From Candidatus Scalindua sediminis (GTDB taxonomy: Bacteria; Planctomycetota; Brocadiia; Brocadiales; Scalinduaceae): 64,000 nucleotides of DNA. The stretch lies in contig VSDH01000008.1 of assembly GCA_008636105.1 (NCBI GenBank), positions 1 to 64,000 of the forward strand, in the 5' to 3' direction. Below, one piece after another: positions 281 through 6,102 of this stretch. A program made the position numbers and the translations under genes. Below the pieces are notes generated by a model. The model did no database searches. It worked only from the letters and a program-made list of their open reading frames with translations, and had not been told where the DNA came from. Positions within the stretch are counted from its first letter, which is position 1, and every line of letters begins with the position of its first letter.

Positions 281-1069
281 ATGATAATTGATAATCGTCA
301 TTCAATATGTCACAAAGTAGTATATGAAGTACGTTACAAATATGGGTTTACTTATCTAGACCGTTGTGGGAGCACGGTTAATGAAATTATGAACAGCACT
401 GATGAAGAATGGGAATTCTATGGACGTGAACCAGATCCTCAAAGTGCACCATTGATAAGCCTAAGAAACGGAACAAGGTTTAACTTTTCTGCTCTAAAGT
501 ATGATTTTGCATTGGAACAAAAGGAAGGTGCGGATAAAGATATAGAAAAACAAGATATAGATGGATTTATAGAACAGGTAGACTTGGTTTCATCAATAGT
601 TAATGAAAGGCTTAGTTTAAGGGATTTTAGCCGTGTTGGTTTTAGAATATGGTACTTATTTGCTTCTAGAACGAGAGAAGATTCAGAGGCATGGATATCT
701 CAGCTATTGAAAACTAATGACATTGATAATCCAATAGCTGAGGCATTAAATGGTAATGTAGAAGCGAAGAGTCATGTAGTTGTGGTTGCATCACAAGATA
801 GAAAGTTTCGTATCTCAATAATCGGTGTGGAAAGCCAAGCTCAATTGAATCTTGTAGGAGGTATGGTTAGTATTCGAAAAAGTAAGCTTAGCCGTGGACA
901 AGATAAATATTTAAAAAAACAATTAAAGAGAGCAGCTAATAATCCTGAATTCGCGGTAATGTTTGATATAGATTCATTTGTTGAATCGCCCAAGGATGTA
1001 GAAGCTAAAGACTTCATTGCAGAATCATTAAAACAGATTGAAGAAAAAGTGCCAGTGGCATTTAAATAA
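281..1069 (+). CDS. uncharacterised protein, first gene of a three-gene cassette
   Basis: I do not recognise this family with confidence. The open frame can begin at TTG 251, but ATG 281 (MIIDNRHS...) is the more natural start and gives 262 residues. The product is soluble and charged, with no signal peptide or membrane segment. The N-terminal part (VVYEVRYKYGF) and overall length are loosely reminiscent of the TIGR04255 group of sporadic hypothetical proteins; this is only an impression. The C-terminal half has a lysine/arginine-rich stretch (SKLSRGQDKYLKKQLKR). It is followed 32 bp later by another unknown gene with a good ribosome binding site and then by a PIN-like gene, all on the same strand, so the three probably form one unit. 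AT-rich composition and lack of housekeeping neighbours suggest accessory DNA. Confidence 0.6.
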   Translation: MIIDNRHSICHKVVYEVRYKYGFTYLDRCGSTVNEIMNSTDEEWEFYGREPDPQSAPLISLRNGTRFNFSALKYDFALEQKEGADKDIEKQDIDGFIEQVDLVSSIVNERLSLRDFSRVGFRIWYLFASRTREDSEAWISQLLKTNDIDNPIAEALNGNVEAKSHVVVVASQDRKFRISIIGVESQAQLNLVGGMVSIRKSKLSRGQDKYLKKQLKRAANNPEFAVMFDIDSFVESPKDVEAKDFIAESLKQIEEKVPVAFK

Positions 1070-1101
1070 AAGAGTATTTTTCTAAAAGAGGAAAGTATAT
1101 T

Positions 1102-1674
1102 ATGGGCTATGATACATTAACAGATTTTAATGATGAAATCATTCACCAGTCTAGGGCTTTTGGCTTAACAAAACACACAGAAAGTCAAGGATCAAGAAGT
1201 GTCAATTATGATTCGTATTATAATAAAACTGGTGTGGATGTAAAACCTGTTATTCAGAGAAGATCAAGAGCTGTTTCTTATAAAAGACAAGTTCAACAAA
1301 TTGCAATCTCAGAAGAAGTAAACAGGTTGCTGCGAAAGGCTTCAGAAACAGTTGACCAGCTTGTGGTGACTAAAGACTTAATTGAACAAGCAAATTACGC
1401 ATTTGCATTCAAGGATTGTTTAGAGGATCTTTGGAAGAATAGGAAGAACAGAGAAGACAACTGGGGGGATCTCTTAAATATTGTGCAGGTTGTATTGGCT
1501 CAGGTTGAGTTTGAACAACTTTCTGAAGTACAGAAGTTGAGTATAAAGAAGGTTACGAATGTTTACCTTTGTAAGCCGGAAATATTAGATCCAGACATTG
1601 ACGATGCTTTAGAAGCGCTTTCTGAAGCGGGTTTTGACCCCTGGAGTGGGATTAGTGGAAAGCCTGAAGTATAA
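1102..1674 (+). CDS. uncharacterised 190-residue protein, second gene of cassette
   Basis: No family recognised. A clear Shine-Dalgarno sequence (AGAGGAAAG) sits 6 bases before ATG 1102. The N-terminal 75 residues look polar and probably disordered, including a basic run (QRRSRAVSYKRQVQQ). The C-terminal 110 residues look helical and compact, ending in LEALSEAGFDPWSGISGKPEV. It has no signal peptide or membrane helix. It lies between the first cassette gene and the PIN-like gene with gaps of about 30 bp, which suggests co-transcription. An antitoxin or adaptor role for the neighbouring PIN-like protein is possible but is only inference from position. Confidence 0.6.
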   Translation: MGYDTLTDFNDEIIHQSRAFGLTKHTESQGSRSVNYDSYYNKTGVDVKPVIQRRSRAVSYKRQVQQIAISEEVNRLLRKASETVDQLVVTKDLIEQANYAFAFKDCLEDLWKNRKNREDNWGDLLNIVQVVLAQVEFEQLSEVQKLSIKKVTNVYLCKPEILDPDIDDALEALSEAGFDPWSGISGKPEV

Positions 1675-1704
1675 CTCCAGTACACATTCAATTAATTTAA
1701 CTTA

Positions 1705-2559
1705 ATGCCTACCGGAACAGCTATTTTCCCCGATACATCAATCCATATTGCCAGGTTATTGCGTGAGCCTGAAATAAAGAAGATTATTGAACAGCGTCTA
1801 GCTTCTTATAATCTTGTTGTTTCTAGCTCAGTGGTTGTACAGGAATTCAAACGCCGTGTCCTGCCTGAAGCAATTTATTTGATAAATCAATTGAATCTCA
1901 GAGGGTCTTACCAAAGAGTAAGAAGACATGTAGATAGTCTTCCTGAAGAATGGAAAAGAAAGAGACAGATTTGTGTTGGAATGTTAAATGAAATATTTGA
2001 AACTGTGGATAAAGTTGATGATTCAGAATTAACCGAGCGTGCTAAACGTTATTTACATACACTAATAAAACATGGCATAACTTATTTTAAAAGAAAATTA
2101 GGCCATATAACTACAGGTACAGATTGTTATTTATCTAAGCTGCCTGTTAAAGTGAAAAAACCATATCAGAAATATGATTCAATTGAAAAGAAATGTAGTA
2201 AAGTTTATCCTCTTTGTCCTATAGCCAGTTTTCTCAAAGAAAAAATAGAATTATGTAAACAAATTTTAAAGTATTTGTCTGCTTTACAGGATAGAACAAA
2301 AGAACTTGAAAGCACGCTTGAATTTTTGCGAGAGTTTATTGATAATCCTGATGGCATTCATGGAAAGAACCCATGTTATTGTGTTGGAGATCTTTTAATT
2401 GCACTTGAAAGCAGTAATATTCCTGATTTCTATACTATGAATTACAAAGAAAGTAAGTTTTTTTGTGATGTTTTAGATCAAAATCTAATTGTATTACCTC
2501 ATAATCCTGATAAATCAGAAAGAATCTTTTCAAAGAATTCCAAACCATGGAATCTATAA
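1705..2559 (+). CDS. PIN-like domain protein, third gene of cassette
   Basis: A 284-residue protein starting at ATG 1705. The N-terminus IFPDTSIHIARLL resembles the first strand and acidic residue of PIN-fold nucleases (D in a DTSxxxxxL context), followed by SSSVVVQEFKRRV, which matches the second conserved acidic position (E after a VVSS strand). The C-terminal CVGDLLIALESSNIPDFYTMNYKESKFF resembles the late PIN motif in which an aspartate precedes a helix and a strand ends in a 'TxN' segment. The middle (residues 60-200) is a long helical insertion with several cysteines, unlike ordinary VapC toxins of about 130 residues. By family knowledge PIN proteins are Mg-dependent RNases; activity here is inferred. 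Together with the two unknown genes upstream it may form a toxin-like or defence-like unit. Confidence 0.55.
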   Translation: MPTGTAIFPDTSIHIARLLREPEIKKIIEQRLASYNLVVSSSVVVQEFKRRVLPEAIYLINQLNLRGSYQRVRRHVDSLPEEWKRKRQICVGMLNEIFETVDKVDDSELTERAKRYLHTLIKHGITYFKRKLGHITTGTDCYLSKLPVKVKKPYQKYDSIEKKCSKVYPLCPIASFLKEKIELCKQILKYLSALQDRTKELESTLEFLREFIDNPDGIHGKNPCYCVGDLLIALESSNIPDFYTMNYKESKFFCDVLDQNLIVLPHNPDKSERIFSKNSKPWNL

Positions 2560-2964: not shown

Positions 2965-3186
2965 ATGAAAACATCAACCTTGACAATCCGATTGGATAAA
3001 GATCTCGAGAATATGTTGTCCAAAGCCAGCAAGAAGACCGGTAAAAACAGAAGTGAAATCGCTCGTGAAGCGTTGCGTCGTCAATTGCGAATTAGCCAGT
3101 TTGAAGCCCTTCGAAAAAGAGTTATGCCTTTTGCAGAAGCCCGGGGATTTTTAACAGATGACGACGTTTTCTTCAAGGTCTCATGA
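2965..3186 (+). CDS. ribbon-helix-helix antitoxin (CopG/VapB type)
   Basis: The 73-residue protein begins MKTSTLTIRLDKDLENMLSKASKKTGKNRSEIAREALRRQL (given here only as the fold description: a short beta strand TLTIRLD, then two helices with the NRSEIAREALRRQL dimer helix). This is the standard RHH fold of CopG/VapB antitoxins, which bind their own promoter as dimers and neutralise a PIN toxin. Its stop codon TGA overlaps the ATG of the following PIN gene (ATGA at 3183), as is usual for such pairs. The toxin partner is truncated after about 27 native codons, so the antitoxin is now orphaned. The -10-like TTACATCATGTTACATG region sits immediately upstream of the start. Confidence 0.85.
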   Translation: MKTSTLTIRLDKDLENMLSKASKKTGKNRSEIAREALRRQLRISQFEALRKRVMPFAEARGFLTDDDVFFKVS

Positions 3187-3296
3187 AAGTCTTTCTGGAC
3201 ACCAATGTCCTTGTAAGCGCAATAGCAACCCGTGGACTTTGTGCGGATGTTCTAAGGGAAGTTTCAACCCTTTCTAACGATTATGCCTTTATTTAA
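3183..3296 (+). pseudogene. truncated PIN-domain toxin (VapC-like), cut at the hisF-end repeat
   Basis: Starting at the ATG that overlaps the antitoxin stop, the frame reads MKVFLDTNVLVSAIATRGLC and on to LREV. This is the typical N-terminus of a PIN-family toxin, with the catalytic Asp6 in FLDTNVL. At 3264 the frame runs into the hisF-end direct repeat and reads nonsense ([10 protein letters not shown]) to a TAA at 3294-3296. An intact PIN toxin has about 130-140 residues with three further acidic residues, all missing here. The break coincides with the repeat edge, which indicates a recombination or deletion event at that sequence. The product would be inactive. Confidence 0.85.
3264..3291 (+). 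repeat. hisF-3'-end direct repeat, copy 2
   Basis: Shares 28 bp with copy 1 (2816-2843) and 25 bp with the real hisF end (6366-6390), all in the same orientation. Unlike copy 1 it has no further hisF similarity beyond these bases. It forms the junction at which the PIN toxin gene is broken. The cytochrome operon lies between this copy and hisF. Confidence 0.85.
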
Positions 3297-3415
3297 TCTT
3301 GCAGATTGAACCAAAACGTTTCGGTTAAGGCTACCCGCCAGAAAGACGAGTCGGGCTGGCAAGCCAGAACCAGCCTGAAATAAGTAGTTGTAAAATATTA
3401 TTGTAATGATAACGT

Positions 3416-3455
3416 ATAAGCCCCCAATATCCATTAAAGGGTATCGGGGGCTTAT
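3416..3455. terminator. bidirectional-looking terminator hairpin
   Basis: A 10-bp perfect stem (ATAAGCCCCC pairing with GGGGGCTTAT) with additional weaker pairing inside encloses a short loop. It lies about 90 bp past the stop codon of the minus-strand octaheme cytochrome and faces the accessory genes on the other side. AT-rich tracts flank it on both sides. It probably ends the cytochrome operon transcript. Confidence 0.75.
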
Positions 3456-3545
3456 TATATTATGGCAACATCTGTCCCTGTTAAAAAAAAATTTTAAATA
3501 ACAGGCCTCGTAAATGCCTTAATTATAAAAGGTCTTTAGAGGTTT

Positions 3546-5237
3546 TTAATTCATTTGTTGCACTTGCTCGTTGGTTTCAACTTTGAAGTTTTTACCATAT
3601 AGGTAACCAATACCGAGTTTTTTCTCTAGAGCTGCCTCTCTACGTATTCTCTTGGCTTCAGCTTGTACATTTCCAAGCTCCTGTAGCATTGGAGACTGCC
3701 CCCACCACCACATTATGTCTTGCTGGGCATGAGCATAACCTTTGTATCCCTGGAGCTTATACCAGAACCACATCTTTGCGTAAGATCTCTCGATAGCAGT
3801 AGGATAGTTCTCTCCCTGATAAAAAAGGGCAAAACCCCCAAAGGTGGGACCGATGACCGGCACCTTTCCTCCTGATTTATTAAAAGCTCCCCATACGGCA
3901 TCCCCAAGTAACTCCGGACCTAGTACTTCGGTAATCTTATCGCCAAATGGGTAGATATCAGTTTCTTCTTCTGCTGTTGTATAAAGAAGATCATCTGTAA
4001 TGAGATCATCAATAATCTTTTGTGCCTTATCGGTAAGGCTGAATGCCTGGAACATGTAATCATCGAGTTGCTCTAAATAAATATCGGCAAAACGAGGGCT
4101 ATGGCAATTCGAGCAGAGTTCGATCCATTTATCCCTCTTATCCAGGTTTTCATCAGAATATATGTCAATTTTATCAGCTATGATTTTTATTCCAAAAGGA
4201 TAATCTTTAAGTGTCGATTTATATTCAATATTTGACGGAGGGGTAGTACCCATTCGCCAGATGCCTTTTGAAACAAAATTGTGCGTGAACCTTCCACCTC
4301 CCTGGTACATATGGCAGAATTGACAGGTCGGTGTGCGATATTCCTCTCCAACTATAACATGTGCAAGCGGTTTTTCAAAATTATAGTGCTCTTCTTCCAT
4401 CTCATAAATAATCCCATGTTTTGATTCACGGTAAGATTCAGCATCAGGATGGTCAGGGCCCATGTGGCATGTCATACAAGCTTCAGGCCTTCTTGCCTCA
4501 GCAGCAGAGAACGTATGCCTTGTATGGCAGGGATCACACTTCTCTCCGATACCATGACACATATCACAGCCTGCGTTACCGGCTAACCACCCCCTTCTGT
4601 ACGCCTCAGGATACCAGGGGACAAGGACGTTGGCCTCCCATGCCTGGATATGATTAGGACGTCCGTGGTCTTTCTCGCTTACAAGCTCCTTTACCTGTCT
4701 TGCATGACATTCGCTGCACTCCTCTGCCGAGGGCATCCTTATTTTCTTTGTCTCTGTGTTCACATGACAGTCAAAGCAATCTACCGAGTCGATTTCACGT
4801 CCTATTATTCCCTCGATAATACTGGTCTTACGGGCAATTATACCGCTTTTCCTTGGATTGTAATGTGCGGAGCGTTTCCAGTCAGCCACAGCACCTGTGT
4901 TTATTCCGTCGTGGCATATTATGCACAAGTCCCTGCGTTCCTTCTCTATGAATATTGTATGGTCTAGAAGTTCCGGTGGCTCGTAATGCCTTAATGGACT
5001 AAAATACATTTGCATTTTTAAAGGTTTATAATAGTCTTTGAAAAGTCCTGCACCTTCTTTAAGACCAACATTGTCCCTGAAAACTGCCTTGTACCAATCT
5101 GGAAACCCTTCATATATGTCCACCTTCTTCGGTACATACGGTTTTTCTTCCTCTGCCAGGACTAATCCTGAAAAAAGTATGGCCGTGACCAGCAGGAAGA
5201 AATTAAAACAAAATCTTAACTTTTTTGCATAATTCAT
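3546..5237 (-). CDS. octaheme hydroxylamine oxidoreductase-like cytochrome c (anammox HAO paralogue)
   Basis: A secreted multiheme protein with a signal peptide ending near LVLAEEE and eight CXXCH haem motifs (first cysteines near residues 105, 154, 174, 224, 234, 254, 305 and 375, counted from the start at 5237). After the sixth motif comes GPDHPDAE, which holds the Asp-His pair of the HAO active site. ATG 5237 is chosen because the Shine-Dalgarno AAAGGAG is 10 bases from it; ATG 5246 is almost touching it. HAO-family enzymes in the anammoxosome oxidise hydroxylamine or hydrazine, or reduce nitrite. Pairing with a diheme cytochrome c upstream is characteristic of the Kuenenia kustc0458/0457 type, a nitrite-reducing form lacking the haem-tyrosine cross-link. 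I infer that type here; the tyrosine position needs an alignment. Confidence 0.93.
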   Translation of the reverse strand: MNYAKKLRFCFNFFLLVTAILFSGLVLAEEEKPYVPKKVDIYEGFPDWYKAVFRDNVGLKEGAGLFKDYYKPLKMQMYFSPLRHYEPPELLDHTIFIEKERRDLCIICHDGINTGAVADWKRSAHYNPRKSGIIARKTSIIEGIIGREIDSVDCFDCHVNTETKKIRMPSAEECSECHARQVKELVSEKDHGRPNHIQAWEANVLVPWYPEAYRRGWLAGNAGCDMCHGIGEKCDPCHTRHTFSAAEARRPEACMTCHMGPDHPDAESYRESKHGIIYEMEEEHYNFEKPLAHVIVGEEYRTPTCQFCHMYQGGGRFTHNFVSKGIWRMGTTPPSNIEYKSTLKDYPFGIKIIADKIDIYSDENLDKRDKWIELCSNCHSPRFADIYLEQLDDYMFQAFSLTDKAQKIIDDLITDDLLYTTAEEETDIYPFGDKITEVLGPELLGDAVWGAFNKSGGKVPVIGPTFGGFALFYQGENYPTAIERSYAKMWFWYKLQGYKGYAHAQQDIMWWWGQSPMLQELGNVQAEAKRIRREAALEKKLGIGYLYGKNFKVETNEQVQQMN

Positions 5238-5283
5238 AACACTCATTCTCCTTTAAATTTTTTTTGCGAAAAACTTATACAGC

Positions 5284-6102
5284 TTATTCCTTCTCTTTAG
5301 ATATTTCTTGCTTAGCAAGAGATTTTACATAATGTACCATACACCAACGATCCTCGTCTGAAAGCTCATTGGCAAAGGATGGCATTGGTGTACCGTTCAT
5401 ACCTGTTGTAAATCTCAGATAGATATCCCGGTCTGTAGAACCTCCCTTATACTTACTTTCCCGTGTAAAATCATAAGGTAATATGGGAATACCCCATTCA
5501 TCCTCCAGGTCGTAACTGCTTGGTCCATCTCCACGACCCGTCTTTCCGTGACACTTCCAGCATTCTTTCTCTTCGTAAAGCTTTTTACCTCTTGCAATAG
5601 TCTTTTGGGTAGGACGCATCTCCCTTCCTAAAATTACCGACGGTTCCGGCTTTCTGTATTGCCAGGCTATAGAAAAGCTCTTTATAACAGGCAGCATTGC
5701 TTTGATTTGCTCCTCTTCAAGTATATCCCACGGTATCATGGACGTTCCATGAATCCCGGTATAAATTACATGAATAAGATCTGCATCCGTTGGTACAGAA
5801 CCTGAAGGGTTAGTGCGTATCTTGAATTGGCCTCTTATGAAATCCCTGGGCTTGGGGTAAAGGGCCCTTGCCAGTGGGCCTTCTCCATCACCTTCCTCAC
5901 CATGACACACTGCACAGTATTTTATGTAAATATCTTTTCCCTTCTTAAATTCTTCCTCGGAAACAGGTTTAAGTGCGTCCTGTGCCATTGCCAAACTGCC
6001 AAGGCATAGCATGGTTACAAAAACGATTGAAATGAATAGAGCGTCCTTCCAGCACAAGTTGCTTCTTTCACTAATTTCTTTTTTCCTGTTTAGATACCCC
6101 AT
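5284..6102 (-). CDS. diheme cytochrome c, partner of the HAO-like octaheme protein
   Basis: A 272-residue secreted protein with two class-I cytochrome c domains: CAVCH at residues 63-67 and CWKCH at 181-185, each followed by G..G(D/E)G. Candidate methionine ligands are in GTSMIPW and GTPMPSF. The signal peptide has a long charged start and a hydrophobic core ending at LAMAQ. A GGAGG ribosome binding site lies 8 bases before ATG 6102. It precedes the octaheme gene by about 45 bp on the same strand, so both are one operon. In the Kuenenia homologue pair the diheme subunit binds the octaheme subunit and feeds electrons to it in a large hetero-oligomer; the same role is inferred here. Confidence 0.9.
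   Translation of the reverse strand: MGYLNRKKEISERSNLCWKDALFISIVFVTMLCLGSLAMAQDALKPVSEEEFKKGKDIYIKYCAVCHGEEGDGEGPLARALYPKPRDFIRGQFKIRTNPSGSVPTDADLIHVIYTGIHGTSMIPWDILEEEQIKAMLPVIKSFSIAWQYRKPEPSVILGREMRPTQKTIARGKKLYEEKECWKCHGKTGRGDGPSSYDLEDEWGIPILPYDFTRESKYKGGSTDRDIYLRFTTGMNGTPMPSFANELSDEDRWCMVHYVKSLAKQEISKEKE

Follow-up and report, generated by a model that had tools for sequence, protein, structure and literature searches.

A conserved gene trio encoding a PIN-like protein in Planctomycetota, a candidate tripartite toxin-antitoxin-like module

Near one end of a contig from Candidatus Scalindua sediminis, three closely spaced genes, the last of which encodes a PIN-like protein, raise the question of whether they form a single system and what such a system might do. 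An earlier reading of the DNA, made from the sequence alone (the sequence-only reading), had singled them out as a candidate undescribed system of defence or addiction. The locus is examined here in a window of 64,000 nucleotides, the whole stretch of DNA analysed, to which coordinates without a further label refer.

Results

Window base 1 is the first base of the contig (C69 of genome G000), and the cassette lies on the forward strand, comprising g1 (281-1069, 262 aa), proposed as a third component that is an antitoxin partner or sensor, g2 (1102-1674, 190 aa), the proposed antitoxin, and g3 (1705-2559, 284 aa), the PIN-like, proposed RNase toxin. The mechanical open reading frame (ORF) of g1 begins at a TTG at 251; the ATG at 281 is taken as the start, in agreement with the start in close relatives. 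The three consecutive genes with gaps of about 30 bp lie where the sequence-only reading had placed them, with gaps of 32 bp between g1 and g2 and 30 bp between g2 and g3, and its inability to name a family for any of them is borne out by Pfam and NCBIfam profile scans, which matched g1, g2 and g3 to no family and in Pfam gave g1 and g2 noise-level scores only. A PADLOC search returned no solid match to the trio and an Rfam search returned none. A PADLOC match of g3 to CARF-HEPN/Cmr5 (E=1.4e-6) was set aside as an effect of composition, being limited to the helical insert of g3 and absent from its relatives. A phage or virus origin of the cassette was likewise dropped, viral contigs and phages having given zero matches.

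Searches with g3 were performed on 294 and then 392 genomes of Planctomycetota, the phylum to which genome searches were directed, with other phyla represented by plasmid records alone. Full-length g3 is present at eight planctomycete loci, including that of the window, and g1, g2 and g3 follow the same order at seven of them, g1 being the first cassette gene in seven genomes; at the eighth (G145) the contig stops before g1. This order is retained at identities falling to ~20%, and at one locus (G345), which was detected by the g3 profile alone, g1 (E=9e-38) and g2 (E=3e-13) are nevertheless present and overlap one another. The recurrence of gene order and reading frames in seven other genomes establishes a conserved operon and rules out chance ORFs, so that the gene order asked after in the sequence-only reading does extend across the phylum. 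Pairwise identity matrices of the three genes correlate at r=0.98-0.99, indicating that the genes move as a unit.

Within the order, the distribution is patchy: of 62 genomes, 5 carry the cassette, and there is one further match that is weak and partial. HisF is 85% identical between the window and G345, a genome of the same family, and 74-78% identical in three genomes of other families, whereas g3 is only 28% identical in G345 and 59-69% identical in those three other-family genomes. Cassette identities are therefore at odds with species kinship and are best explained by horizontal transfer among planctomycete genomes, in keeping with the earlier description of the segment as accessory. The G345 cassette is surrounded by transposases and a phage-type DNA methyltransferase, which mark a mobile region (L023 3195-15708). 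In a second genome (G041), an ORF just upstream of g1 (L020 6005-6499) has a phage-type match to phrog_11747 (E=4e-30) and faint similarity to a ClpP-like SDH protease, and in a third (VGXV01000019) an ORF downstream of the cassette (L008 9424-9783) is MazF-like as judged by eye. Enrichment near defence genes, suggested earlier as a check, was not borne out, as the planctomycete cassette loci have no consistent defence neighbours.

A comparison of 13 g3 sequences from Planctomycetota and Cyanobacteriota, with identities as low as 15-28%, reveals that D10, T11, S12, E47, E111, L117, C141, C171, F176, C224, D229 and C254 are invariant. The N-terminal motif is F.DTS, and D10, E47 and D229, together with an N or D at position 246, follow the order of acids in PIN domains (D, E, D, D/N) and are presumed to be metal-binding residues. 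The long cysteine-containing insertion remarked on previously is real: ~150 mostly helical residues (1903-2367, forward strand; ~residues 67-221) separate the E47 helix from the D229 helix and hold the invariant C141 and C171, while C224 and C254 lie just outside, and the four invariant cysteines may bind metal. When g3 was compared by hhalign with 21 PIN domains drawn from planctomycete genomes, matches of E=5e-5 to 9e-5 with probabilities from 60% were obtained, improving to E=2.5e-5 and 75% after addition of cyanobacterial g3, with only the first 50 residues aligned; decoy profiles stayed below 1%. The Pfam PIN profile PF01850 matched g3 below threshold (E=0.02-0.28), and after removal of the insert matched three of seven members (E=0.02-0.18); its scores of 12.9-15.9 bits without the insert and 13.0 bits in the own-genome search do not reach the curated cut-off of 23.6 bits. 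An AlphaFold2 model of g3, built on eight sequences and of middling confidence (pLDDT 71), has an order of predicted elements compatible with a PIN domain carrying an insert. A Foldseek search of the PDB with this model gave no PIN structure and no usable match, and a PDB profile search with insert-free g3 gave zero PIN proteins. The earlier assignment of g3 as PIN-like is thus upheld by motifs and profile comparison but not by Foldseek, and a PIN-like fold is probable.

The AlphaFold2 model of g1 is fairly confident (pLDDT 78.5, pTM 0.81), and its best PDB matches in Foldseek are TATA-binding proteins (TBP; E=1.5e-4), with TM scores of 0.28-0.41 that make the overall resemblance partial; a TBP-like alpha/beta fold is predicted. 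SecB is absent from the listed PDB matches. In the NCBIfam scan, no g1 member reaches the curated 30-bit cut-off of TIGR04255, a family that no paper was found to name in a literature search confined to open papers. In a two-way HMM comparison, TIGR04255 proteins rank ahead of background with the g1 profile, and g1 proteins do so with the TIGR04255 profile (rank-test p=3e-7 and 5e-5, values that are optimistic because a floor value was assigned to unscored sequences and because related sequences were used). The best match between the two scores 12.2 bits against a maximum of 10.6 in 3,000 shuffles, a motif ending R.G.R falls in register, and hhalign gives a probability of 1.3%, which is noise level. 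From this weak HMM signal, g1 is likely to be remotely akin to TIGR04255.

The phylum search for TIGR04255 gave 21 matches, and wider stretches were examined for 20, in most of which a short variable gene comes immediately after the TIGR04255 gene and a third gene after that. This third gene encodes PemK at one locus (L094/L027) and a PIN protein at two (L099/L032 and L107), and a PIN ORF also lies downstream of the TIGR04255 gene at L106. The genome of the window has two such operons of its own: in one (G000:C9:20298-21029; L030, L097) the third gene is a Pfam DUF7689 member, to which the third gene at L092 is similar by eye, and in the other (G000:C28:37379-38041; L041, L100) genes two and three look like HicB and HicA by eye, with zero Pfam matches. 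A Vibrio parahaemolyticus plasmid (L114, CP063527.1, 158-2105) carries TIGR04255, a hypothetical gene and a zeta toxin. Most third genes of TIGR04255 operons have no recognisable function. The cassette fits this recurring layout of TIGR04255 gene, short gene and toxin, and a three-gene arrangement ending in a nuclease is consequently less unusual than had been supposed: trios with the toxin last are not rare, and TIGR04255 genes often lead them.

In alignments, g2 varies in its N-terminal part and is conserved in its C-terminal part, and the protein resembles no known antitoxin, with no DNA-binding domain seen. With g3 from G345 as the tblastn query, a Tolypothrix plasmid gave a weak match (E=0.03); the protein encoded there scores 50.5 bits against the g3 profile, and the gene immediately before it matches the g2 profile. 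At least six Nostocales plasmids, from Tolypothrix, Nostoc edaphicum, two Trichormus strains, Nostoc linckia and Scytonema, carry full-length g3, and its partner there is a 136-aa protein matched by the C-terminal part of g2. When the ORFs of these cyanobacterial loci are ranked by the planctomycete g2 profile, the ten g2 genes examined there take the first ten places. The pair adjoins ParA/ParB in Trichormus and lies near partition genes in Tolypothrix and Scytonema. On the Tolypothrix plasmid (L112 4305-5536), a gene for a NucA-type endonuclease and an inhibitor gene also adjoin the pair. While g2 and g3 are adjacent at all eight planctomycete loci and at the Nostocales plasmid loci read, g1 was sought at the cyanobacterial g2-g3 loci and none was found, showing that the three genes are not obligatorily together. 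The separate occurrence of homologues, which the sequence-only reading had named as evidence against a system, is therefore seen in part: the trio is linked in Planctomycetota, but g2 and g3 do without g1 on Nostocales plasmids.

On six other Nostocales plasmids g2 is intact and g3 is missing, with a scar of g3 in four. In three of these (Anabaena cylindrica, TIOX110 and Dolichospermum), intact g2 precedes a scar whose end is the final 53 bp of g3, and a DEAD/DEAH helicase gene comes next; NIES-3756 retains g2 and a 142-bp 3' piece of g3; and on the plasmids of a Lobaria cyanobiont and UHCC 0302, g2 is present and g3 absent. Across the three plasmids with the common scar, g2 has a dN/dS of 0.17-0.29, indicating that it is still under selection after the loss of g3. 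Among the loci examined, no intact g3 lacking g2 was seen (g2 of N. edaphicum spans the record start), and a Calothrix plasmid holds just a small fragment of g3. Such one-way loss, in which g3 goes and g2 is kept, is the pattern of a toxin and its antitoxin, as read from a small sample of related plasmids with few independent events. Immediately downstream of orphan g2 genes, at almost constant spacing (~228 bp; L117, L118 and L120 at 3001-3639, L121 at 3001-5436), lies either a DEAD/DEAH helicase gene or a CBASS operon. Some chromosomal toxin-antitoxin systems are anti-addiction modules (PMC12548467), and by analogy an anti-addiction role is possible for the orphan g2 genes.

Beside the cassette and outside it, the toxin-antitoxin remnant and repeat scars noted in the sequence-only reading are real. 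A MITE-like scar at 2813-2925, the first copy of a dispersed repeat (CAACCCTTTCTAACGATTATGCCTTTAT...GTTGAGACCTGACCCC), flanks the cassette. It is followed on the forward strand by an intact, VapB-like RHH antitoxin gene (2965-3186; PF01402 E=2.2e-5, with a RelB-like NCBIfam match below cut-off) and the truncated start of a PIN toxin (MKVFLDTNVLVSAIATRG...; 3183-3297), which is interrupted by the second copy (3261-3292). Together these form a VapBC-like remnant (2965-3297) in which the toxin is cut short by the repeat and the antitoxin has again survived it. A 32-nt direct repeat was initially considered a CRISPR repeat, but this was dropped: the five genomic copies (the two above, G000:C43:11211, G000:C43:14515 and G000:C69:6367) are scattered and the repeat extends to ~110 bp, which identifies a dispersed element.

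Discussion

The cassette is probably a tripartite toxin-antitoxin-like module and possibly a defensive one, and in our reading of the comparative evidence g2 is the antitoxin, g3 the toxin and g1 a third component added to the pair. Its conservation, linkage and horizontal spread, the acidic residues of g3, the plasmid pair without g1 and the survival of g2 beyond the loss of g3 are all seen in the sequences. Mechanistically, g3 would be a PIN-fold, metal-dependent RNase that, if free, would cut RNA and stop growth; g2 would bind g3 and keep it inactive; and g1 would stabilise g2 or the complex, or sense a trigger. Loss or diversion of g1 or g2 would then free g3, and RNA would be cut. The original observation is confirmed as regards the order of the trio, the PIN-like g3, the uncatalogued families and mobility, but the trio is not obligatory and its layout is not rare.

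A different division of labour would make the cassette an anti-phage system and not an addiction module, with g1 and g2 as a sensor that activates g3 as an abortive-infection RNase on infection, and neutralisation of g3 by g2 unnecessary. This overlaps with the toxin-antitoxin reading, and a patchy, horizontal distribution, an orphan plasmid g2 upstream of a CBASS operon and others upstream of DEAD/DEAH helicases, and the precedent of CmdTAC, a tripartite toxin-antitoxin-chaperone system that works in phage defence (PMC11618068), are in its favour. We nevertheless consider it unlikely, as the planctomycete loci lack consistent defence neighbours, the trio has no solid PADLOC match, and both the g1-less pair by plasmid partition genes and the loss of g3 but not g2 suit a toxin and antitoxin better.

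RNA maturation enzymes occur among PIN proteins, and g3, with its long insert and conserved cysteines, might instead serve the cell as a specific, non-toxic RNase in an RNA-processing or regulatory operon, with g1 and g2 as cofactors. Such a role is very improbable for a horizontally moving cassette that ~90% of the order's genomes do without, that has plasmid copies close to partition genes and in which g2 is retained once g3 is lost. It is also highly doubtful that g3 is no PIN nuclease but a helical protein whose DTS motif arose by chance, in a cassette that does something else. The negative Foldseek and PDB profile searches, the subthreshold PF01850 scores and the confinement of the profile match to the first 50 residues would agree with this, but four acids in PIN order across 13 sequences down to 15-28% identity, with D10, E47 and D229 invariant, an order of predicted elements that suits a PIN domain with an insert, and decoys below 1% probability argue against it.

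Beyond the tripartite toxin-antitoxin-like module itself, we tentatively propose that TIGR04255-type proteins, including g1, may quite generally supply the third component of tripartite toxin-antitoxin systems in several phyla, as a counterpart of the SecB of TAC systems that is combined with different, exchangeable antitoxins and toxins (PIN, PemK, zeta and others of no recognised kind); the cassette would be one branch, in which the toxin and antitoxin families are new. If these readings are correct, the cassette would add a toxin and an antitoxin family that the searches of Pfam, NCBIfam and PADLOC did not return, and TIGR04255, a widespread family of unknown function, would gain a testable role as the third partner in toxin-antitoxin operons. 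The three-gene form in Planctomycetota, the two-gene form in Nostocales and the antitoxin-only plasmids offer a natural comparison, in which the part of each gene could be tested in E. coli and in Nostocales such as Trichormus variabilis ATCC 29413.

Among known systems, the cassette resembles type II VapBC (PIN toxin, PF01850) in having a PIN-like candidate toxin last and a small putative antitoxin before it, in its plasmid pairs and in an antitoxin that outlives the toxin gene. It differs in the 284-aa g3, which has a ~150-aa insert and falls under the Pfam cut-off, whereas ordinary VapC toxins are about half as long, in a g2 that matches no VapB family, and in the third gene, g1, carried in Planctomycetota. 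With TAC and CmdTAC (PMC5105189, PMC11618068) it shares an arrangement of three genes, one of which, the third component, may govern the antitoxin; in CmdTAC, a phage capsid protein draws the chaperone away, whereupon the antitoxin is degraded and the toxin freed (PMC11618068). The order of the cassette is, however, reversed, with g1 first and the toxin last, and the g1 model is TBP-like, with SecB absent from the listed PDB matches; since g1 is unlike SecB, the tie to CmdTAC is a likeness of design and not one of membership. The TIGR04255 ('sporadic' family, unknown function) operons share a first gene of ~250-270 aa, a variable short gene and sometimes a toxin (PIN, PemK or zeta), whereas g1 falls under the family cut-off and at noise level in hhalign, and g2 and g3 each form a separate family.
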